Positions 13,616-55,493 of a stretch of 64,000 nt of DNA are shown here, in pieces. This stretch comes from an uncultured Candidatus Pelagibacter sp. GTDB taxonomy: Bacteria > Pseudomonadota > Alphaproteobacteria > Pelagibacterales > Pelagibacteraceae. The translations under genes were made by a program, and so were the position numbers. Location: NCBI GenBank assembly GCA_905616395.1, contig CAJQSQ010000002.1, positions 1-64,000 on the forward strand, given 5' to 3'. The notes under the pieces were generated by a model, which saw only the letters and a program-made list of their open reading frames with translations, ran no database searches and was not told the origin of the DNA. How positions within the stretch are numbered: position 1 is the stretch's first letter; the number at the start of each line of letters is the position of its first letter.

Positions 13616-14398
13616 ATGTACCATATTCTTTTAAATTTTATATATTCTATCTATAAAATTATGAGCATAATAAGAGCTATTTTACTGTCAATTATTCTAA
13701 TTATTCCTGTAAAAGCAAATACTATCTACAATCTAATAAAGATACCTAATTTAGAAATTTATGAAATTAACACTAAAAATAAATTAAAATATTTTTATGC
13801 AGCTAGGCCCTTTGGGTTGGGTACCCAAAAAAATATTGTTTGCTCAAATCCAAATAAGAAAGATTTAAAAATAAAATATAAAATTATTCATAAAAATCTT
13901 AATAGATATTCTTATGATTATTTAAAAAAAATTAACCTTAAATATATTGTTTTGTGTGAAAATTTGTCAATCTCAGAACTATATACAGCTGGTATTCCTG
14001 ACAATATAATGAAAACATTAATACTAGATATTAAATTTAATGAAGATTACTTTGAAAGAGTAATTCATCATGAGGTTTTTCATATAATACATCTTCAACA
14101 TAAAAGTATTTTTAACGATGAAGAGTGGATTAGATTTAATAATTCTAACTTTAAATATGCTGAATGTTCTACATGCACAAAAAAAATAAGCTTAGAGCAA
14201 TACCAAGAAACAAAAGGTTTTTTCACAGAATATTCTAAGTCAACAGCCTCAGAAGATATGGCAGAAGTTTACTCACATATGATCTACTTAAAGAAAACGG
14301 AAATTAACCAAATTCGTAAATCAGACCCTATTTTAAATAATAAAATTTCATATATTAAAAATAGAATAAAAGAAATAGATAATTCTTTTACATTTTAA
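13616..14398 (+). CDS. Secreted protein with HExxH zinc-peptidase motif
   Basis: This 260-residue protein carries HHEVFHIIH, an HExxH motif, in its middle and a downstream ASEDMAEVYSH that could supply a glutamate ligand. This is the layout of gluzincin-like putative metallopeptidases. A more likely start is ATG 13661 (codon 16), which begins MSIIRAILLSI and gives a clean signal peptide cleaved after PVKA. An ECSTC segment gives two cysteines. No named family is recognised. Its stop overlaps the following cyclophilin start by one base, so the two are cotranslated; both are predicted to act outside the cytoplasmic membrane. Confidence 0.7.
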   Translation: MYHILLNFIYSIYKIMSIIRAILLSIILIIPVKANTIYNLIKIPNLEIYEINTKNKLKYFYAARPFGLGTQKNIVCSNPNKKDLKIKYKIIHKNLNRYSYDYLKKINLKYIVLCENLSISELYTAGIPDNIMKTLILDIKFNEDYFERVIHHEVFHIIHLQHKSIFNDEEWIRFNNSNFKYAECSTCTKKISLEQYQETKGFFTEYSKSTASEDMAEVYSHMIYLKKTEINQIRKSDPILNNKISYIKNRIKEIDNSFTF

Positions 14399-41610: not shown

Positions 41611-42662
41611 TACTTTAATTCCACCTGTGCTTTTAGGTCAGCTTCATCTACAACTTCACCAAATCTTTCAGGATATTTTTCTCTTAACCATCCCATTACC
41701 CCTTCAGGAAAATAAACAACAATTACGATAATTAAAACTCCAAGAGCAACATACTGCCAGCCCAAAAAGTAAGTCCAAAAACCTTCTTTAAATAAGTGAA
41801 ATATAGTTGCACCAACAAGTGGTCCCCATAAAGTTCCCTTACCACCAAGGATTGCCATTAAAACCATGAACACACCAAATGTTGGTCCAGCAAATGCAAT
41901 TTCAGTTGGTTCAATGTAACCATTAATATGACCCATTAATCCTCCAGCAATTCCAACAAAGAATGCTGATACCATCCAGCCAATAATTTTATATCTCATT
42001 GTATGAATTCCCATTGCTTCCGCTTTATCTTCATTGTCTCTTATTGCATTTAAAACTAATCCAAATCTTGTGCTATATGCCCACTTCAAAGTAATAAAAG
42101 TTACAATTGCAAGAGCAAGACACAAATAATATAAAAATTGAGATGAAGACTCGTTAGACCCAAATCCCTTTGGCCAAACTGGAACCGTCATGCCTTGACC
42201 TGCCCCAATTATTTCAATTCCTCCCGCAAGTTCACCTGCAGCAATTCCTAATGCTAAAGTACAAATTGCAAAGTAATGTCCTCTTAAACCTAAAATTCCG
42301 TAACCAATTACTCCTGCAATTATTGTCGGAATAATTCCTGCTAATAATATACCAACTCCAAAGCCTTGAAAAAATTGAGGGATAGTATGAACAAAAGTTT
42401 TCTCTCCACCAGCATCTGTCCATTCAGCAAGTGAAAAGAACATTGCTATTTGTGTACTTGAAGCAACATACATTCCAATACCAAAAAATAATATATTTCC
42501 AAATGTATTGTAACCCATCTGTCCACCTTGAACGTCCCAAGTCATAGCTAAAACAATTAAAATATATAGAAAAGATAACTGAAGTTTATAAGCTGGAAAT
42601 ATAAATGCCCCAGCTAAGCCAAAGATTATTAAACCAGCATATAATAAAGTATTTTTATTCAT
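41610..42662 (-). CDS. Second branched-chain-type ABC permease, LivM-like
   Basis: This 350-residue permease has the LivM features WDVQGGQMGYNTFGN, LRGHYFAICTLALGI and NAIRDNEDKAEAMGIHT, and the terminal GKGTLWGPLVGATIF. It is separated from its LivH-like partner by two inserted hydrolase genes. Single-base overlaps join it to both neighbours. Confidence 0.92.
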   Translation of the reverse strand: MNKNTLLYAGLIIFGLAGAFIFPAYKLQLSFLYILIVLAMTWDVQGGQMGYNTFGNILFFGIGMYVASSTQIAMFFSLAEWTDAGGEKTFVHTIPQFFQGFGVGILLAGIIPTIIAGVIGYGILGLRGHYFAICTLALGIAAGELAGGIEIIGAGQGMTVPVWPKGFGSNESSSQFLYYLCLALAIVTFITLKWAYSTRFGLVLNAIRDNEDKAEAMGIHTMRYKIIGWMVSAFFVGIAGGLMGHINGYIEPTEIAFAGPTFGVFMVLMAILGGKGTLWGPLVGATIFHLFKEGFWTYFLGWQYVALGVLIIVIVVYFPEGVMGWLREKYPERFGEVVDEADLKAQVELK

Positions 42663-43624
42663 TAGATTCTAGACTCTATATATTTCAATATTGTTGGATT
42701 GTAGAACTGAAAGCAGTCTGTGAATGCAAGATCATGTGCACTTCTTGGTTTGAGTTTTGTAATTTTACCGTCTTGTCTGTCATGAACTCTACATTTTTGT
42801 TTATTAAGTTTGTAATTTCCTTTTTTACCTTTTGTCTCAATAATAATTCTTTTAACTCCAGGAATATCATCCATCCAATCTGATAATAATCCATCAAAAG
42901 GATCTTCTGGATGTGTAAAAACTAGAATTGGTAAATTTTTACTTTTTTTAATCTCATTAATTTGATTTTGTCTTAAATTTGCTGGACCATCTCCATCTTC
43001 TTTTTTAAATTTTTCTAGCCCTTTTTTTATACCTACTTTTTTTACCTTGGCATTTTTAGTTATCATTCCATAACAACCTGGCATTGTTACAATTCCACCA
43101 GCTACTTTATTTGGATGTTTTGCCATAAGCATAAAAGTCATCCATGCACCACAAGAATGCCCTGTAAGAAAAATTTGATTAGTAGGTATTCCTTTTTTTA
43201 CAAAATTATCAATTAGTTTCAAATTTAAGTTGGCTGCTTTATCTAGTTTTGTTGTTCCTTTGTAAGGCTCTTTAAACTTTTTTTTATTCCACAAATATTC
43301 GTCATCTCCTGCTAGCTTTTGAGTGCACAGAATATAAAGCATAATTTCTTTATTGTTAATTTTAGTATTAACTAATGTAGCTAAAGCAGAAATGTCTATT
43401 GTATTTGCGCAATCTTTTAAATTTGATTTTGGAATATCATGATAATCTTGACCAGTGTTATAGATAAGAATTATCTTATTTTCTGGATCATCAATATTAT
43501 CCTTTGTTTGATCTTTTTGAAGCTTCATATTCTTGTTATAGAAACCACTTTTTGAAATCATTTCTGAAAAACTACTTGTAGTTAAAGTTAATAGTAACGT
43601 AAGAATTAAAATAATTTTATTCAT
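42662..43624 (-). CDS. Secreted alpha/beta hydrolase, paralogue 1, inside the transporter operon
   Basis: This 320-residue protein has a signal peptide (about residues 1-20, ending TSSFS). The nucleophile elbow is TGHSCGAWMTF; the catalytic acid is probably in THPEDPFDGL, and the final histidine in SAHDLAFTDC. It is clearly paralogous to the next gene upstream (for example AGDDEYLWNKKKF, KKSKNLPILVFTHP and the shared C terminus YNPTILKYIESRI). The substrate is unknown. The signal peptide means it acts outside the cytoplasm. Single-base overlaps join it to both neighbours. Confidence 0.8.
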   Translation of the reverse strand: MNKIILILTLLLTLTTSSFSEMISKSGFYNKNMKLQKDQTKDNIDDPENKIILIYNTGQDYHDIPKSNLKDCANTIDISALATLVNTKINNKEIMLYILCTQKLAGDDEYLWNKKKFKEPYKGTTKLDKAANLNLKLIDNFVKKGIPTNQIFLTGHSCGAWMTFMLMAKHPNKVAGGIVTMPGCYGMITKNAKVKKVGIKKGLEKFKKEDGDGPANLRQNQINEIKKSKNLPILVFTHPEDPFDGLLSDWMDDIPGVKRIIIETKGKKGNYKLNKQKCRVHDRQDGKITKLKPRSAHDLAFTDCFQFYNPTILKYIESRI

Positions 43625-44553
43625 TAAATTCTAGACTCTATATATTTTAATATTGTTGGATTGTAGTATTGAAAACAATCTGCCCCATCCATGTCATGAT
43701 ATTTCTTGACAGGTTCTTTCCATTTTTGACCATTATTTACTCCAATTCTATAACATCTTTTTCCATTAATTTTTTTATCTTCTGAAATAACAATTCTTTG
43801 AACACCCGGAATTTCTTCTACCCAATCAGACAATAATCCATCATAAGGATCTTTTGGATGAGTAAAAACTAAAACTGACAAATTTTTACTTTTTTTAATC
43901 TCATTTATTTGATCTTGTCTTAAGTCAGCAGGTCCATCACCTGCTTTTTCTCTAAATTTCTCTAATGCTTTATCAACACCAACTTTTTTAACTTTTGCTC
44001 TTTTGCTTAACTTTCCATAACATGCTTGCATTAAAGAAATTCCCCCTCCTACTTTATCAGGGTATTTTGCCATTAACATCATTGTTAACCAACCACCACA
44101 CGAGTGACCAGTTAGGATAATTTGATTTTTTGGAACACCTTTTTCTAAAAAATTATCAATAAGTTTTAAATTTGCATTAACTCTTTTATCTAATTTAGTT
44201 ATTCCTTTATAAGGAGGTTGAAATTTTTTTTTTTTCCACAAATTTTTATAATCATCTCCTGCTAAATGATCTGTACATAAAAGATAAACCATTATTTCTT
44301 TTCCGTTAATTTTTTCTCCAACTAACGAAGAGAAGTTTCTTATTCCATTTTTCCAAACACAATTTTTAGAAGAGCGGTCAAGATCTTGTTGTCCGTGGTT
44401 AAAAATAAGGATTATCTTATTTTTTGGATCTAAAATATTTTGCTCTTTTGCATAACCCATTTTGCTATTAAGAAAACTATCTTTACGAAGCTTGTCTGCA
44501 TAAACAGGGGTTATTAGAGTTATGATTATTAAAAATGAAAATATTTTTTTCAT
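43624..44553 (-). CDS. Secreted alpha/beta hydrolase, paralogue 2, inside the transporter operon
   Basis: This 309-residue protein has a signal peptide ending TPVYA (residue about 19). The nucleophile serine is at about 151 in TGHSCGGWLTM; a likely acid lies in THPKDPYDGLLSD and a likely histidine in YHDMDGADCFQ. It shares long blocks and the same C terminus with the next gene, so the pair arose by tandem duplication. Placed between the LivH-like and LivM-like permease genes, it probably releases a substrate taken up by the transporter. Confidence 0.8.
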   Translation of the reverse strand: MKKIFSFLIIITLITPVYADKLRKDSFLNSKMGYAKEQNILDPKNKIILIFNHGQQDLDRSSKNCVWKNGIRNFSSLVGEKINGKEIMVYLLCTDHLAGDDYKNLWKKKKFQPPYKGITKLDKRVNANLKLIDNFLEKGVPKNQIILTGHSCGGWLTMMLMAKYPDKVGGGISLMQACYGKLSKRAKVKKVGVDKALEKFREKAGDGPADLRQDQINEIKKSKNLSVLVFTHPKDPYDGLLSDWVEEIPGVQRIVISEDKKINGKRCYRIGVNNGQKWKEPVKKYHDMDGADCFQYYNPTILKYIESRI

Positions 44554-48135: not shown

Positions 48136-49206
48136 TTACTCTCCAGTTCCGGTCTCAACTTCAATAATAAAAGGATCACCACCAACTTTCGCTCCCCAAA
48201 TAACAACACTATCATCTACACTCATATCTATTGATACTGAAGCGTATGTTGTAACTTTAAGTTTAAAACTGTTTGTATTTTCTGCTATAATAATTGGAGT
48301 GTCATATTTATATATTTGAGAAATTCTTCTCGATTCACCTACAGTAGTTGCTAATGTATTAGTTGTAGTTAACATGTTTGCTGCAATCTCAATGTCAGTA
48401 ATACCTGTGTCTGCTTCAACAGTTATTGAACCATAATCAGCAAAACCAACAAAATCATCTTCTTCTTCACCAAATTGATCAATAATTTCAGTTGCAAAGT
48501 ATGTAGCATCGGTACTTGCATCAAAACCAGAAGGTACAGCTGAACCACACACTAATCTTGCTGCTGCAGGATCTTCTTCAGTTGCCGCTGCACTAGTTCC
48601 ACTTAAGACAGGAGTTATACCTTGTGCTGTTGCATAAGCACCATCATAAATAAAACCTGTATATGTTGTAATACCAGCTGCTACTGTCCAACAAAAAGTT
48701 CCACCGGCACCACCATTTCCTTTTATTGTGGCCGCATTTCCATTAGCTAAAACATATTTTTGTTTATGTTTTATTTTCAAGTGATTATCTATGATTATTG
48801 CAAGATGAGTATAAGAACCTAAGGGCAGATTAATTTCTCCATCTAATAAATTTACATCTACACCGGGTTTAAGATTAACTTCTTTTGTCGTGTCTAATAT
48901 AGTTGTACAGCTAGAAAAGTCTGGGGCATTATCTCCTGCATTATAAGGTTCCGTTAAACATAATGCCACGCTAAAAAATTTAACTTTATATTCATCAGGC
49001 TCTTCGGCGCATTGATCAATAGCAGTAGTTGTTCCCTTTAATATAAAAGGATTAGCTACACCAGTGGTCACTATAATAGCCTCTAATGCAGCATCTTTTT
49101 TACATGAACGCGGGCCATCAAAAGCTTCACTAGAAACTAAAAATAATATTAATGAACTGAATAAAAATGTAATCAAAAATAAGGGGGTAAAAAATCTATT
49201 TTTCAT
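48136..49206 (-). CDS. Secreted cysteine-containing surface protein, cassette A
   Basis: This 356-residue protein has an N-terminal signal (about 1-29, ending SSEA). The mature part is rich in Thr, Ala, Gly and Asp, with few lysines after residue 160. Its first 130 residues share a pattern with the protein at 53672: C-x-P-x-VxF-xLC, a fourth cysteine, then LPLGSYTHLAIIIDNHLKIK. It starts after the upstream barrel gene, whose end supplies the AGGAGG Shine-Dalgarno sequence. It probably sits on or beyond the outer membrane together with that barrel. No family name is known to me. Confidence 0.72.
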   Translation of the reverse strand: MKNRFFTPLFLITFLFSSLILFLVSSEAFDGPRSCKKDAALEAIIVTTGVANPFILKGTTTAIDQCAEEPDEYKVKFFSVALCLTEPYNAGDNAPDFSSCTTILDTTKEVNLKPGVDVNLLDGEINLPLGSYTHLAIIIDNHLKIKHKQKYVLANGNAATIKGNGGAGGTFCWTVAAGITTYTGFIYDGAYATAQGITPVLSGTSAAATEEDPAAARLVCGSAVPSGFDASTDATYFATEIIDQFGEEEDDFVGFADYGSITVEADTGITDIEIAANMLTTTNTLATTVGESRRISQIYKYDTPIIIAENTNSFKLKVTTYASVSIDMSVDDSVVIWGAKVGGDPFIIEVETGTGE

Positions 49207-49207
49207 A

Positions 49208-50119
49208 TTAAAATCCTCCTACTTTCACACCAGATTTAGAAATCTTAACTACTCTTATTTTATTTTCTCTTTTTACTGGCTGATAAAGTTTGTCACTAAC
49301 ATCTGTATATTCTAAATAGTTACGTGTTTTTTTAGCTTGTTTTAATTTATATGAGTCAGAATCAAATTTACCTAATTTTACTACAAATTTAATACTACCA
49401 AAAAAGGCATCATTATTTTGATCATCATCTAGATATCCACCCTCTATAATAAAATTCCCTAAAGAAGCATTGGCTCCAAACTTTGTGCCTTTCTCTTTGT
49501 ACGTACTTGCTTTATCTGGATTCTCAAATTTGAATAAATTTGCAAAAATGTTTACATCTCTTTCACCAGGTAAGTGATAATCTAATTGAGTATCCCATCC
49601 ATCTAATGCTCTTTCCGATCCATCGGTTATAGTTTTTGATCCACTAATAGCATTGTAATAATTTCCTCTGATATCAAAAACACTTGATATGGCTTCAACC
49701 CCAGCTCCTGTTCTTTTGTGATTTTTATCAAACTGGTGATCATAAAAAATATTAGATCCTATCAAAATTTTATTGTCATTAAGAAGCTTTCTAACTCCAA
49801 AACCAATATTGATAGTTTCGTCGTCATCATGTGTATTTAAACTGGTTTGATTAAAAATTGTTCCAGAGTCTATCTTTAAAAGCTCTGAAACGCTCATGAT
49901 ACTAAAGGTTGGCTTTAATTTTTCTCTTACCTGAATATCAAAATCTAAATATTTCATATTTTTAAAATTATTTTCTGCAAAATTAGCAATAGCCTCTGCA
50001 GTTTTGTTTGAAAGCTCATTAATTTTTTGATTAATTTTATTATCGATTACGTCTGCAGAGTTAGCAGAAGTCAAAAAGAGACTTAATAAAAGTGAATATA
50101 TAATTTTTTTATTTAACAA
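49208..50119 (-). CDS. Passenger-free inverse-autotransporter-type outer-membrane barrel, cassette A
   Basis: This 303-residue protein has a signal peptide ending TSANSA and a beta-barrel resembling the intimin/invasin translocation domain: ETINIGFGVRKLLNDNKILI, NIFYDHQFDKNHKRTGAGVE and VFDIRGNYYNAISG. Unlike true inverse autotransporters it stops at a terminal phenylalanine (KVGGF), with no passenger. The next gene, 1 bp away, may be the partner. The start is a TTG without a clear Shine-Dalgarno sequence. The barrel call rests on motif similarity. Confidence 0.75.
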   Translation of the reverse strand: MLNKKIIYSLLLSLFLTSANSADVIDNKINQKINELSNKTAEAIANFAENNFKNMKYLDFDIQVREKLKPTFSIMSVSELLKIDSGTIFNQTSLNTHDDDETINIGFGVRKLLNDNKILIGSNIFYDHQFDKNHKRTGAGVEAISSVFDIRGNYYNAISGSKTITDGSERALDGWDTQLDYHLPGERDVNIFANLFKFENPDKASTYKEKGTKFGANASLGNFIIEGGYLDDDQNNDAFFGSIKFVVKLGKFDSDSYKLKQAKKTRNYLEYTDVSDKLYQPVKRENKIRVVKISKSGVKVGGF

Positions 50120-50354: not shown

Positions 50355-51602
50355 TTACTGTGTAGGTTTGATAACTTGACAGTCCGTAGGATGTAAACTG
50401 CTGTTTATATATTTTGTGAAATTACCTGTTTTTTTAAGACAATATACCGAATAAGGATCCCAAGAATCTTCTGCTGTTGGAGTTAAGTAAACACTCTTTG
50501 ATAAATCAGGGCAATCTTTTATACCATGAAGATAGTAAGTATCATTTTTGCTATCAATTATTGGGTATAGTGTATTTACCGCTAAGACATCTGGTTGCTT
50601 AACATGACCACCTTGATCTGTTCTTTTTCCACAACTATAAGATGCACCTTGAGTATGAAATAACTCATGAAGAGTTACTTGATCCTTTTCTGTAACACCA
50701 TAAGACAACCCTGCAGGAGTAAAAATTGTTGTTATAGGTGGTGATCCAGAACCTCCATGTGAATCTCCTGCTTTAGCTTTAAAACCAGTAAATAATGCAT
50801 AAGTTTTTTTTGGATTATTAAAATAATTATATGGAGACAACAATCCGTAAATCCTACGTTCTGGATATTTTGGAAGCTCTGCTTCGGTCAAATCCATTCG
50901 AACAAAAGTAATATCTATCTTTCCATCTTTTCTATAATCAAATTTAAATTTTTGACCAACGCCATTAGATTTTTTATTTTTTTTTGACCATTTCTCAAAT
51001 TTATTATTAACAGTTGTTAATCTTTTTTCCAGCCAGCCATTAACATCAATTTCTTTATCTTTAGAATCTTTAGCTAGTACATAAAAAAAATGAACTTGAT
51101 AATCATCATTAACATCAGGTTGATCTTCAAAAAATCTTCCTGGTTTTTTATCAATTTGTGCTTGCTTTTCTTGTTCTACTTTTCTTTCTGCTATTTTAGT
51201 TTTTGCTAAGATTGATGCTTTAGCCTCGTCGTATTTCCAAACAATTTCTTCATTAACTGCATACAAATAACATTCTTTACCCGTATGTTTCTTGGCATAT
51301 TTCGTACATTCTTTATATGTTTTCTTATGAAGTTTTTCTAAATCTTTACCTTTATGAGCTGACCAGGAATAGATATCATAATCACAACTAGCATAGAGCA
51401 CACTATTTATATTTTTTTTTGATAATTTTTTTAAATGTTTTTTTATAAATTTTTTATTTATCGATTTAAGATCTATATCACACCCTGCAATAGATGTTAC
51501 TCCAGGCTCATTAACACCTGCATAAGCGTTCCCACTCAACAACAAACCCAGAACCGCGATCCCTAAAAATTTTTTGATAAAATTATTTCTGAAATATTCC
51601 AA
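50355..51602 (-). CDS. Secreted putative zinc metalloprotease, tandem paralogue 3
   Basis: The proposed protein of about 415 residues starts at TTG 51602, giving an n-region with Lys and a hydrophobic core ending GNAYA. The open frame runs on to 51869, but that part overlaps the upstream gene's coding sequence. The two paralogues start MKK(L/I)L; here the aligned codon is ATC (51578), not ATG. A unique domain of about 110 residues precedes the shared KPGRFFEDQPDV block. The catalytic motif is HELFH, with Cys at +8 and His at +17 from the second motif His. The C terminus repeats SVYLTPTAEDSWDPYSVYC. Confidence 0.7.
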   Translation of the reverse strand: MEYFRNNFIKKFLGIAVLGLLLSGNAYAGVNEPGVTSIAGCDIDLKSINKKFIKKHLKKLSKKNINSVLYASCDYDIYSWSAHKGKDLEKLHKKTYKECTKYAKKHTGKECYLYAVNEEIVWKYDEAKASILAKTKIAERKVEQEKQAQIDKKPGRFFEDQPDVNDDYQVHFFYVLAKDSKDKEIDVNGWLEKRLTTVNNKFEKWSKKNKKSNGVGQKFKFDYRKDGKIDITFVRMDLTEAELPKYPERRIYGLLSPYNYFNNPKKTYALFTGFKAKAGDSHGGSGSPPITTIFTPAGLSYGVTEKDQVTLHELFHTQGASYSCGKRTDQGGHVKQPDVLAVNTLYPIIDSKNDTYYLHGIKDCPDLSKSVYLTPTAEDSWDPYSVYCLKKTGNFTKYINSSLHPTDCQVIKPTQ

Positions 51603-52578
51603 GTTCTTCTTTCCATGAAACTTTAACATCATTCCGTGAATAAAAACACATTCCTCCCTCACCTCTTCTGTCTTTAATATTTTTATAATCATGTTTTGTA
51701 AATTTCCATTTTTCTTTTGGCAAACATGTGACTTCAAATGGATCGAAAGGAGTGTCTGATGTTGGTGTAAAGTAAACACTGTCTTGCATATCCGGACAAC
51801 TTTTATTATTATGACCCCAATAGTCATCATTCTTTGGGTCCAATGTATTGTTTTTACCATCACCTTCAATACTCATCAAATCACTAGTTTTTTTTGTATT
51901 ATGTACATATTTAGTATATTTTGGGGAACAGGTAAAAATTCCTCCCATTGCATGAATAACCTCATGTAAAACAAAATATCCGAATTCACTTTTTTTAAGA
52001 GGGTATTTTTTTTGATGCCTATTGAATATACTAAATATTGGAAAACCACCAGAGTAAGGCCATTCTTTAAAAGAATAATCTCCAAAATTAAAATACATCT
52101 TTTTAGGATTATTAAACCCAGAATTAATTATTGTTCTGCCAAAAACATTGCCACAAGTTCCTGACGGGGATTTTTTTAATTCTTTTTTAGTCTTATTTAT
52201 TCTAATAAAGCTAATATCTAATTTTCCATCCTTTCTTCTATCCCATTTTATGTTTTGAGCTATACCATTTTTAAAATCAGATTTTTCATTTGCTTTTTTT
52301 GTAGTTTTTAAAATATATTTATCAGATGCTTCTATCCATTTTTCTATAGCTCCATTAATGTCTCCCTCTTTATCTTTAGAGTCTTTTAAAAGTGAGTAAA
52401 CAATATGAATTTGATAATCATCGTTGACATCTGGCTGATCTTCAAAAAATCTTCCTGGTTTTTTATCTGACTCAAGAATTACAGGTGTTGTGTCTAAAGA
52501 TGAAGTATAACATTTATCTGCAAGAGCACCCCCACTTAACAACAAACCCAGAACTATGATCGATAAAAGTTTTTTCAT
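51583..52578 (-). CDS. Secreted putative zinc metalloprotease, tandem paralogue 2
   Basis: This 331-residue protein has a signal peptide ending SGGALA, then the shared KPGRFFEDQPDVNDDYQ block at about residue 40. The zinc motif HEVIHAMGG comes with the family-conserved Cys and third His (HAMGGIFTC, then YVH). The C-terminal block reads DSVYFTPTSDTPFDPFEVTC. The order and cysteines match both neighbours. It starts 3 bp after paralogue 1's stop. No named peptidase family is recognised; the proteolytic role rests on HExxH. Confidence 0.75.
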   Translation of the reverse strand: MKKLLSIIVLGLLLSGGALADKCYTSSLDTTPVILESDKKPGRFFEDQPDVNDDYQIHIVYSLLKDSKDKEGDINGAIEKWIEASDKYILKTTKKANEKSDFKNGIAQNIKWDRRKDGKLDISFIRINKTKKELKKSPSGTCGNVFGRTIINSGFNNPKKMYFNFGDYSFKEWPYSGGFPIFSIFNRHQKKYPLKKSEFGYFVLHEVIHAMGGIFTCSPKYTKYVHNTKKTSDLMSIEGDGKNNTLDPKNDDYWGHNNKSCPDMQDSVYFTPTSDTPFDPFEVTCLPKEKWKFTKHDYKNIKDRRGEGGMCFYSRNDVKVSWKEELGIFQK

Positions 52579-52581
52579 TAT

Positions 52582-53514
52582 TTAATTTCTTTGATAAATA
52601 GATTTTGCTATTTGATCGTTAAAAATTTTCATTTTTCCTGATTTTTGATCCAAGTAAGAAAATTTACAGCCTGAACCACCAGATCTGTTATTCCAATTGC
52701 CGTTTTTTAAATCTTTAGCTTGCTGTTCTCTAGCTTTAACTAATTTTGGATGATTGTATTTCCCCCATTCATTTTGACATATAAGTTTAAAAGGGTCGTA
52801 TGGATTTTTGGATGTAGGTGTTAAATAGACTGAATCTTCCCCTTTGGGGCATCCTTCAATATCATGAGCATAAGCTTTACCAAAAAACATTTGTTTTGAA
52901 GGCGTGTCTTGAGATCCAGACCAGTGAGCATTTTTACCCATACCTTTCACACAATTAAATCCACCGCCTTTAGCATGATGCATTTCATGAACTGCAGTAC
53001 GGATCATATTGTTTATTTTTTTATTGTATTTGCTTTTTAAAAACATTGTAGCCATACCAACTCCCCCTTCACCCCCATCTCGACTTTTTACATCAGCAAA
53101 GGTAAAATAAATCTTTTTTGGATTGTTAAATCCATTAGCCCATAACCAGCCTCTATAATTATTATTGATATGTTTGTGAAGCTCTTTACGTTTTCTGTCT
53201 AATCGAATGAAAGAAATATCAAGTTTGCCATCTTTCCTATAATCATATTTATATTTTTTAGCACCAGATGAGCCTTTTGTTTTTTTACTAAAACTTTCAT
53301 GAAGTTTATTCATTTTATCTGCATATTTTTCAATTTTTCCATTAATGTCTAATTCACGATCTTTATCATTTGCTGTAAGCATATAAATAAAATGAATTTG
53401 ATAATTATCTGTTACATCGGGCTGATCTTCAAAAAATCTTCCTGGTTTTTCATCAGTAAGACTAATGTTACACCACAACAAACCCAGAACCATGATCCCT
53501 AAAATTTTTTTCAT
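52582..53514 (-). CDS. Secreted putative zinc metalloprotease, tandem paralogue 1
   Basis: This 310-residue protein begins MKKILGIMVLGLL, with a likely signal peptide. KPGRFFEDQPDVTDNYQIH starts at about residue 23. The motif AVHEMHHAKGGGFNC is followed by a third His in GKNAHW, and the C-terminal block DSVYLTPTSKNPYDPFKLIC is present. It is first in the three-gene run. Its leader holds TATAAA-like and AGGAT elements. The island boundary is 43 bp upstream. Confidence 0.75.
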   Translation of the reverse strand: MKKILGIMVLGLLWCNISLTDEKPGRFFEDQPDVTDNYQIHFIYMLTANDKDRELDINGKIEKYADKMNKLHESFSKKTKGSSGAKKYKYDYRKDGKLDISFIRLDRKRKELHKHINNNYRGWLWANGFNNPKKIYFTFADVKSRDGGEGGVGMATMFLKSKYNKKINNMIRTAVHEMHHAKGGGFNCVKGMGKNAHWSGSQDTPSKQMFFGKAYAHDIEGCPKGEDSVYLTPTSKNPYDPFKLICQNEWGKYNHPKLVKAREQQAKDLKNGNWNNRSGGSGCKFSYLDQKSGKMKIFNDQIAKSIYQRN

Positions 53515-53671: not shown

Positions 53672-54637
53672 TTATAATGCTGACAAATCAAAGTCAAAGA
53701 ATGCACTATCAAATTTTTCCATTTCATTTGAAGATTCCATAGCTAACGTCACACCTCTAGTATTATTATATTTAATTTGAATACCGGTTGTATCAGGGGT
53801 AATTTTTAAATCTAATGCCATAATTCCTTGAATACGACTAATTCCATTATCAGTTCCCTCTTTACAGCCCGTTACAGTATTTTTTATTTGATCTGGATCT
53901 GTACCTCCAACACCATTTACTAATGTACCGTCAGATTCTAGCAAATATGTGGCTACGTTTGCTGTTGTACCCTGAAAAGTTAGTAAATGATTGCAATCAT
54001 TATCACTATCGTTTGTTAGTGTGTTAACGCCAATGGTTATTTCTGCTGCAGTTGCACCAGACGCACAACTAACATTTCCTTTAGCAAAAGTATTAATCTC
54101 TGTATGATATCCGTAAACAATGCCTTCGGTTGAAACTTTTGTTACACAAGTTGTTGTATTGTTAGTTCTATCACTTACGTTTCCATTAAAAGTTACACTT
54201 GTAGTAAATTTAAACGTAGAGCCCAATGTTATGATGCCATAAGAATAATTTCCATATGGTACAGCAGTGTAATCTGAAGCTGAACCTATTTGAGTACCAA
54301 CCCCTTGAACAATTGATACTTCAGACCCAGTATCTTTTTGATAAAAAGTAAAACAATCTGATCTATCAACAGTCGCTGATGTTGTTGGTCCTGTTGGTTT
54401 AGATGTGCAAAACTCTACTCTATACCAAGTAATTTTTTGACTATCAGGAGTAACTTCACAATGAGTAGTTCCTGGTTGTGTTATTACACCTCCAGCATTT
54501 CCAGTGCACTCAGGATTATTTCTAGAAACACTTCCTGATGGATCAAGAGCATTTGCAATATTAAAATTAAAAACTGATGCTAAAAAAGTTAAAAATAGTA
54601 AAATAAAAAATACTTTTATATTAAATACTGCTTTCAT
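53672..54637 (-). CDS. Secreted cysteine-containing surface protein, cassette B
   Basis: This 321-residue protein has a signal peptide ending NIANA and a Thr/Ser/Gly-rich mature part with about ten cysteines. The N-terminal third aligns with the cassette A protein: C, then YRVEFC, DCFTF, and VPYGNYSYGIITLGS. The C terminus (ESSNEMEKFDSAFFDFDLSAL, final 21 residues shortened here to FDSAFFDFDLSAL) is acidic and aromatic. The start follows the barrel gene's stop by 1 bp, and the junction GGATTTTAATATGAA is almost the same in cassette A. The function is unknown, probably cell-surface. Confidence 0.72.
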   Translation of the reverse strand: MKAVFNIKVFFILLFLTFLASVFNFNIANALDPSGSVSRNNPECTGNAGGVITQPGTTHCEVTPDSQKITWYRVEFCTSKPTGPTTSATVDRSDCFTFYQKDTGSEVSIVQGVGTQIGSASDYTAVPYGNYSYGIITLGSTFKFTTSVTFNGNVSDRTNNTTTCVTKVSTEGIVYGYHTEINTFAKGNVSCASGATAAEITIGVNTLTNDSDNDCNHLLTFQGTTANVATYLLESDGTLVNGVGGTDPDQIKNTVTGCKEGTDNGISRIQGIMALDLKITPDTTGIQIKYNNTRGVTLAMESSNEMEKFDSAFFDFDLSAL

Positions 54638-54638
54638 A

Positions 54639-55493
54639 TTAAAATCCTATCACGGTTAAGCTCATTTCTTTTTGTTTAACTATTAAATTTTGTCTTCTAA
54701 CTTTAACAAATCTTTGATCAGCAACTGAAGTCAAATTGTAAGCTTTGTCACTTATACCAATTTTCTCTTGCTTATTATTACAACACGTCCAAGTTAATCT
54801 TAAAAATTCATTGTCTTCAGTAGTTCCATCGTTACTTCTTTTACCAACCTCAATATTAAAACCTGAAAATTTTGCCTCTAAAGACATTTCATCTCCTTTT
54901 AGGTCAGTTGCACCACTCGCACCTTCCCAGTTAAAAGATCTTAAATAAAAATTTGCCCATGGTAGGTATGGTAAAGGTGCTCCCAACTCAACATCATTAC
55001 CATTTAAAGCTTTTTCTTTTATGCTATCTAATCCTGATTGCCATCCTGATAAACCATAATATTGATTTGCTCTAAATGAACCAACACTAGATATAGCCTC
55101 AATTCCAATACTTGCTCTTTGGTGGTCATAATCAAGTTCATGATCATAAAATAAATTAGCACCTAGTAATAGAGTATCGTCATTAACTAATTTTCTTTTA
55201 CCAATTCCTAAATTAATTGTTTCTCTACTATCATCTGATAAAAAAATGCTACCCTGGGTAAATAAAGTATTTTTTTCATCATTTATGTCTGACAGAGGTT
55301 TTACAACTAAAATACTACCAACAACTGCATTAGAAGTTCCAGAGCTTAACTGAACCTCAACAGTCTCAAAATTTTGTCCCAAGGCACCACTAAGATACTC
55401 ACTAAAATTATTTATAAGATTATTTTTTACATCAGCAATTGAAGCTGAAAAGTAAAATGTTGATAACATTAAAACTAATATTTTTGGATACAT
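54639..55493 (-). CDS. Passenger-free inverse-autotransporter-type outer-membrane barrel, cassette B
   Basis: This 284-residue protein has a signal peptide ending SASIA. Barrel strands match the cassette A protein and the intimin/invasin translocator: RETINLGIGKRKLVNDDTLL, NLFYDHELDYDHQRASIGIE and SFRANQYYGLSGWQ. It stops at a terminal phenylalanine (LTVIGF), the usual C-terminal outer-membrane signal, and no passenger follows. The gene lies 76 bp downstream of msrB and pairs with the secreted protein 1 bp further on. Confidence 0.77.
   Translation of the reverse strand: MYPKILVLMLSTFYFSASIADVKNNLINNFSEYLSGALGQNFETVEVQLSSGTSNAVVGSILVVKPLSDINDEKNTLFTQGSIFLSDDSRETINLGIGKRKLVNDDTLLLGANLFYDHELDYDHQRASIGIEAISSVGSFRANQYYGLSGWQSGLDSIKEKALNGNDVELGAPLPYLPWANFYLRSFNWEGASGATDLKGDEMSLEAKFSGFNIEVGKRSNDGTTEDNEFLRLTWTCCNNKQEKIGISDKAYNLTSVADQRFVKVRRQNLIVKQKEMSLTVIGF

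Follow-up and report, generated by a model that had tools for sequence, protein, structure and literature searches.

Three tandem HExxH genes of Pelagibacterales probably encode exported, metzincin-type peptidases with a displaced third histidine

Introduction

On the minus strand of the 64,000-nucleotide stretch analysed here (the window), positions 50355-53514 hold a run of three adjacent genes, each of which encodes an HExxH protein. The locus raises the question of what these proteins might do and which residue would complete their zinc site. A first-pass annotation had pointed to a third histidine beyond the motif and had set the motif apart from that of the metzincins. From the genes, their relatives, their predicted fold and their neighbourhood, we propose, at a probability of roughly 70%, that all three products are exported zinc endopeptidases and form an unnamed family in which the catalytic domain is that of a metzincin and the third ligand is displaced past an invariant cysteine. 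Export, zinc binding, the identity of the third ligand, a disulfide and proteolysis are what we infer within this proposal.

Results

Layout of the three genes

All three genes were confirmed at this place. Gene 1 (P0003; 52582-53514, minus strand) encodes 310 aa with a leader, the KPGRFFEDQPDV block and HEMHHAKG, and gene 2 (P0002; 51583-52578, minus strand) encodes 331 aa with an H-x8-M step (DLMS, Met-turn-like) and LDPKNDDYWGH. Gene 3 (P0001; 50355 to 51578 or 51602, minus strand) encodes 407-415 aa, its start being uncertain, and carries an extra N-terminal domain. The codons of HEMHH in gene 1 (52975-52989), HEVIH in gene 2 (51952-51966) and HELFH in gene 3 (50655-50669), all on the minus strand, were checked in the window; the signal peptides were called by eye, without a predictor.

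The three products were aligned with a fourth paralogue from contig C6 (84369-85682) to give alignment A1. The leader, KPGRFFEDQPDV block, HExxH and C-terminal TPT...DP block described earlier as common to the three adjacent genes were all seen there. Invariant in A1 are KPGRFFEDQPD, H-E-x-x-H, a Gly, a Cys, the third His, a further His, CP and T-P-T ... D-P. The step from the second motif His to the third His is 17 residues in the three window genes and 16 in the C6 copy. By A1 and a codon check, this putative zinc ligand lies at 52924-52926 in gene 1, 51901-51903 in gene 2 and 50604-50606 in gene 3, each on the minus strand.

Gene 3 has no ATG at its start; ATC (51578) stands where other copies align their ATG, and an in-frame TTG is found at 51602. 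Its open reading frame runs to 504 aa, of which the first 89-97 residues are a mere out-of-frame overlap with gene 2. The roughly 110 extra N-terminal residues reported earlier for one member are nevertheless real in the form of a 105-122-residue stretch between leader and KPGRFF, whereas the beginning of the reading frame is not part of them. This extra domain (51156-51515, minus strand) has a predicted helix-strand-strand-helix-strand order, and the C6 paralogue likewise carries an extra N-terminal stretch. No Pfam family matched the domain over cut-off; weak matches were DUF4189 in one relative (E 0.018) and C5-epim_C (E 0.0099, below cut-off).

Distribution of the family

The family was found in 75 of 297 sampled Pelagibacterales genomes, and a single scan gave 173 related loci, so the pattern seen in the three genes is not a chance one. 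The best 80 of these 173 are labelled as Pelagibacteraceae, Pelagibacter, Pelagibacterales or unspecified Alphaproteobacteria. An earlier count of 32 out of 61 genomes was not relied on, as three of them (G002, G016 and G025) matched only profile positions 1-47, the leader. In one genome (G028), the relative of gene 2 (locus L012, 1489-2486) is split into two overlapping frames, which may reflect either gene breakage or faulty assembly.

A class sample of 385 genomes, the source genome and some others of the order included, added one genome beyond the order (G861, E 2.5e-17). The phylum sample (398 genomes, E<=1e-3) returned the source genome only; loosened to E<=5 and run with a richer profile, it gave four more matches (L140-L143), none with a related protein in open reading frame lists of minimum lengths 80, 80, 100 and 150 aa, respectively. 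Plasmids and phages yielded no family member when searched, and among viral contigs 12 stretches matched and none was confirmed.

Conservation of the motif

Conservation was counted in alignment A2, which consists of 50 members gathered by profile, independently of the motif. Both motif histidines are present in 50/50, the Glu in 49/50 and the Gly in 48/50, and two cysteines, C197 and C241 of mature P0002, are invariant (50/50 each). A displaced His at +16 to +25 occurs in every member, 48 having it in the same column and the other two one column earlier. The His-to-His step is 16 in 19 members (two of which are shifted by one column in A2), 17 in 22, 18 in three and 22, 23 or 25 in six; a count by eye gives about 28 for the L018/L020 type, from another family of Pelagibacterales. 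The histidine is conserved and its exact distance is not: the identical spacing claimed earlier holds for the three window genes and gives way to 16 to 25 residues across A2. Two further histidines, H38 (50/50) and H236 (48/50), come close to the displaced one in conservation.

At +6, the position of the canonical third ligand, neither His nor Asp was found in any of 133 distinct sequences, the residues there being F, M, Y, P, T, W, I, Q, A and N. This set was drawn with a pattern demanding H-[EGDQ]-x-x-H and a nearby Cys, which dropped three of 136 sequences, all fragments, and it includes some cut copies of one gene.

In 7/50 members of A2 a D[ILMV]M triplet follows the displaced His at 8-12 residues, in a search that covered 20 residues. 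The aligned Met-turn column holds Met in these proportions too (7/50, absent in 43/50), with Leu as the commonest residue (27/50), and genes 1 and 3 are without Met. D(I/L)M is found 8-9 residues past the displaced His in gene 2 and in three divergent relatives. Two of these (L018 and L110) have their Met eight residues after the His; the third (L147), a remote homologue (25-30% identity) that belongs to a different alphaproteobacterial family, reads HEMIHSLG-x4-C-x7-H and has its Met nine residues past the His. A His-to-Met step of 8 holds in matrix metalloproteinases too.

Predicted fold

AlphaFold models were obtained for P0002 (m7b38c772d8e3; pLDDT 80.5, pTM 0.85) and P0001 (ma8d104579813; pLDDT 81.1, pTM 0.75). 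The Foldseek search of the PDB with P0002 gave 15 matches at E<=1e-3, namely ADAM10, OgpA, Amuc_1438 and snake-venom enzymes, with low query-normalised TM-scores of 0.29-0.41. In VIA, the top match of P0002 was Amuc_1438 (Z 12.0 over 188 residues, rmsd 3.8), and OgpA (Z 11.0) and TACE (Z 9.8) were also matched. Amuc_1438 came first for P0001 as well (Z 13.5 over 185 residues, rmsd 3.2), the next match standing at 12.8 and ADAM17/TACE at 11.0. Models without a clear match are stated to peak typically at Z 7-8, a level that both models exceed. Metzincins occupy all 50 VIA rows listed for each model and also head the Foldseek lists. The match spans the catalytic domain and leaves out the extra N-terminal domain of gene 3.

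In the P0002 model a helix at residues 176-190 bears HExxH at 185-189, and residues 191-240, which include the third His, are of low confidence (block means 56-69). The catalytic domain is thus predicted by both models to adopt the fold of the metzincins, clan MA(M). The earlier verdict of not metzincin stands for the motif, which differs from HExxHxxGxxH, and would not extend to the fold, which matches metzincins in the two models.

Family assignment

The first-pass annotation had recognised no named family, and the searches agreed with it: Pfam, NCBIfam and PDB sequences gave no assignment. This leaves it unlikely that the three genes belong to an established, named peptidase family which the searches overlooked. 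Weak matches speak for such membership. P0003 resembled the DUF5700 putative peptidase (PF18958) at E 0.015, with 15.2 bits against a cut-off of 25, as did one of 50 members at E 0.016, and the outgroup L147 resembled Astacin (PF01400) at E 0.0029, with 17.8 bits against a cut-off of 22.5. A comparable HExxHxxG...GH...DxM arrangement occurs in some secreted proteins of actinobacteria, a likeness that may point the same way. Against it, 12 family proteins with reported cut-offs had no Pfam match over cut-off, and at E<=0.02 the 50 members matched just five families, scattered over one or two members apiece. Four proteins searched against NCBIfam came nowhere near a cut-off, and PDB sequences gave no match at E<=10, profiles included. 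Astacin matched neither the window proteins nor, at E<=0.02, the 50 members, and the M8 profile is missing from the five Pfam families that the 50 members matched at that level.

In the open-access literature no SAR11 family of this sort appeared by title or abstract start among the matches listed. The excerpts available of PMC8889253 and PMC12636525 contain nothing on such a family, the words 'peptidase' and 'protease' not occurring in that of the latter.

Barrel neighbours and gene context

The three genes lie between two barrel-only inverse autotransporter beta-domain genes identified by Pfam (PF11924), one at 49208-50119 (minus strand, E 2.8e-32) and one at 54639-55493 (minus strand, E 3.6e-36), and constant co-occurrence of the family with such barrel cassettes had been raised as a point to check. 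It did not hold up. IAT_beta (PF11924) is present in 49 of the 75 family-bearing genomes and absent in 26; some genomes are incomplete, yet three that are 96-97% complete (G477, G489 and G495) are among the 26. It also occurs without the family in 55 genomes. An IAT-like frame was found within the fetched stretch at three of 80 genome-contig loci (L080, L089 and L113), in a scan that used our own two-sequence profile and included some short loci. Around the C6 copy (L005) no IAT barrel was recognised within the surrounding 16 kb, the IAT_beta of that contig lying about 15 kb off; the source genome has five IAT_beta matches. Over the 297 genomes the two are strongly associated (Fisher p 5.5e-10, kinship ignored), with IAT_beta in 28 of 32 family-bearing genomes of one Pelagibacterales family versus 21 of 43 in the other. 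Co-occurrence with the barrel is not obligatory, and these neighbours are dispensable for the family.

After each window barrel there is a secreted-looking protein without Pfam family (48136-49206 and 53672-54637), and a similar barrel-then-secreted-protein order was seen in L080, L089 and L113. Barrel and follower could conceivably make up an inverse autotransporter divided over two genes. The SAR11 autotransporter adhesin gene described in the available part of PMC12636525 is far larger than the window barrels.

At five of eight loci inspected gene by gene, the copies occupied one slot with the same flanking genes, alone or with secreted-looking neighbours (by eye). This variable slot, seen in L042, L054, L089, L107 and L111, has flanks that start MFYDL(K/E)DKK and MLT(D/N)AV or similar, and it holds one to several genes for mostly secreted-looking proteins that differ between genomes, again by eye.

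Elsewhere in the window, 13616-14398 encodes another HExxH protein (HHEVFHIIH) that matches PF15890, Peptidase_Mx1, over cut-off (E 2.4e-11) and shows no sign of kinship to the three genes. Two tandem genes at 42662-44553 encode leader-bearing, alpha/beta-hydrolase-like proteins (PF02230 over cut-off) and sit among what appear by eye to be branched-chain amino-acid transporter genes.

Evolution of the family and of gene 3

The window copies are 68-76% identical to their own type elsewhere and 38-42% identical to their neighbours; they are therefore not recent duplicates. The family is under purifying selection, with a median dN/dS of 0.09 over 643 pairs with 0.05<dS<0.7.

Gene 3 evolves unusually fast. 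It is a mosaic, its N-terminal domain being 86% identical to one paralogue at locus L066 and its catalytic part 80% identical to the next one. Between the catalytic parts of gene 3 and this second L066 paralogue, dN/dS is 1.01 (bootstrap 0.62-1.87); for the same pair the 61 codons immediately preceding HExxH give 3.49 (lower bound 1.33) and the 96 codons upstream of those give 0.26, the pair and the codon stretches having been picked after the fact. In another pair (L072/L075) it reaches 0.85. The lack of an ATG, and a dN/dS of about 1 in the catalytic half against the nearest relative, make decay a possibility for gene 3, if for no other copy; the fast change may reflect either decay or diversification, on either branch. 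Against decay, its frame is open for 407 codons, and it deviates at five of the 57 columns conserved at >=90%, none of them catalytic.

Discussion

The zinc site and its third ligand

The family is probably exported and of the metzincin type, and by its predicted fold it should work as a metzincin. The active-site helix would present both HExxH histidines, which would bind zinc, and the Glu, which would activate the water. In HExxHxxGxxH the third ligand comes three residues after the conserved Gly; here the chain would instead make an excursion, usually 10-12 residues longer, which bears the invariant Cys and then supplies the displaced His. In gene 2 and a number of divergent relatives the Met-turn-like D(I/L)M comes next.

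The earlier suggestion that either the third His or the Cys completes the zinc site is here narrowed to the His as the most plausible third ligand. The Cys was dropped as first choice. It is invariant together with a second Cys, the one preceding DSVY (the C197 and C241 pair), and a disulfide between the two is therefore likelier than a zinc-binding role, as far as sequence conservation can tell.

Another conserved residue might complete the site, for example H236 of mature P0002, which stands before CPD, and the +17 His would then be structural. Besides its conservation in A2, H236 is invariant in an eight-sequence alignment with the outgroup included. It comes after the Met-turn-like D(I/L)M, however, and we know of no metzincin with its third His after the Met-turn. 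H236 is also truly lost in two of the 50 members, being Asp in L043 and Leu in L087, and both retain HExxH and the displaced His. We consider this arrangement doubtful and keep the displaced His as the preferred ligand. That the proteins are exported binding or inhibitory proteins which retain the metzincin fold without catalysis, as HGLIH in place of HExxH in L083 and the missing Met-turn Met of most members might suggest, seems quite improbable given that 49/50 members of A2 retain the catalytic Glu.

Comparison with known metzincins

Adamalysins and ADAMs (TACE, ADAM10 and snake-venom enzymes) share the fold (Z 8.6-9.8 for P0002 and 9.2-11.0 for P0001), carry the canonical HExxHxxGxxH and are only 6-14% identical. 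Astacins (M12A) are touched by the sub-threshold match of L147 over HExxHxxG; they have the standard third His, which is absent from the 133 sequences of the SAR11 family. The best structural matches are Amuc_1438 and OgpA, metzincin-like O-glycopeptidases of Akkermansia, with which the family shares HExxH on a long helix and a signal peptide. It differs from them in that +6 is never His, and identity is 10-18%. In the excerpts available, the zinc ligands of OgpA are H205, H209 and H215 (third His at +6) with M231 in the Met-turn (PMC7518263), and in Amuc_1438 H233 completes the site and a Met-turn is present (PMC9513282).

The usual metzincin motif is HExxHxxG/NxxH/D, with IgAse having one extra residue in it, according to the accessible portion of PMC12237041. 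The arrangement proposed for the SAR11 family would be that of leishmanolysin (M8) with a shorter insert: in leishmanolysin, too, an insertion separates the motif's Gly from its third His, whose counterpart here is a putative ligand. As the section of PMC9321319 at hand gives it, 62 residues separate the Gly from the last His in leishmanolysin, versus an insertion of usually 10-12 in the SAR11 family and about 22 in the L018 type. A metzincin can carry a Gly-to-last-His insert, because leishmanolysin does. Judged by its sequences, the family does not have the standard third-ligand spacing and is filed in no named family.

Possible role and significance

The proteins might be fast-diversifying, domain-swapping exported metzincins for conflict with other organisms or for surface processing. 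In such a picture the ligand would be displaced, the Met mostly lost, the catalytic halves under diversifying selection and the N-terminal domains swapped between neighbouring paralogues. We regard this role as speculative and rather unlikely.

If the three genes do encode exported zinc endopeptidases with a displaced third ligand, they would add an unnamed metzincin family whose non-standard zinc motif would be overlooked by motif scans. Streamlined SAR11 cells could then keep up to four such exported proteases, and the Met-less paralogues beside the Met-containing gene 2 in one gene row would offer a natural test of the role of the Met-turn methionine.
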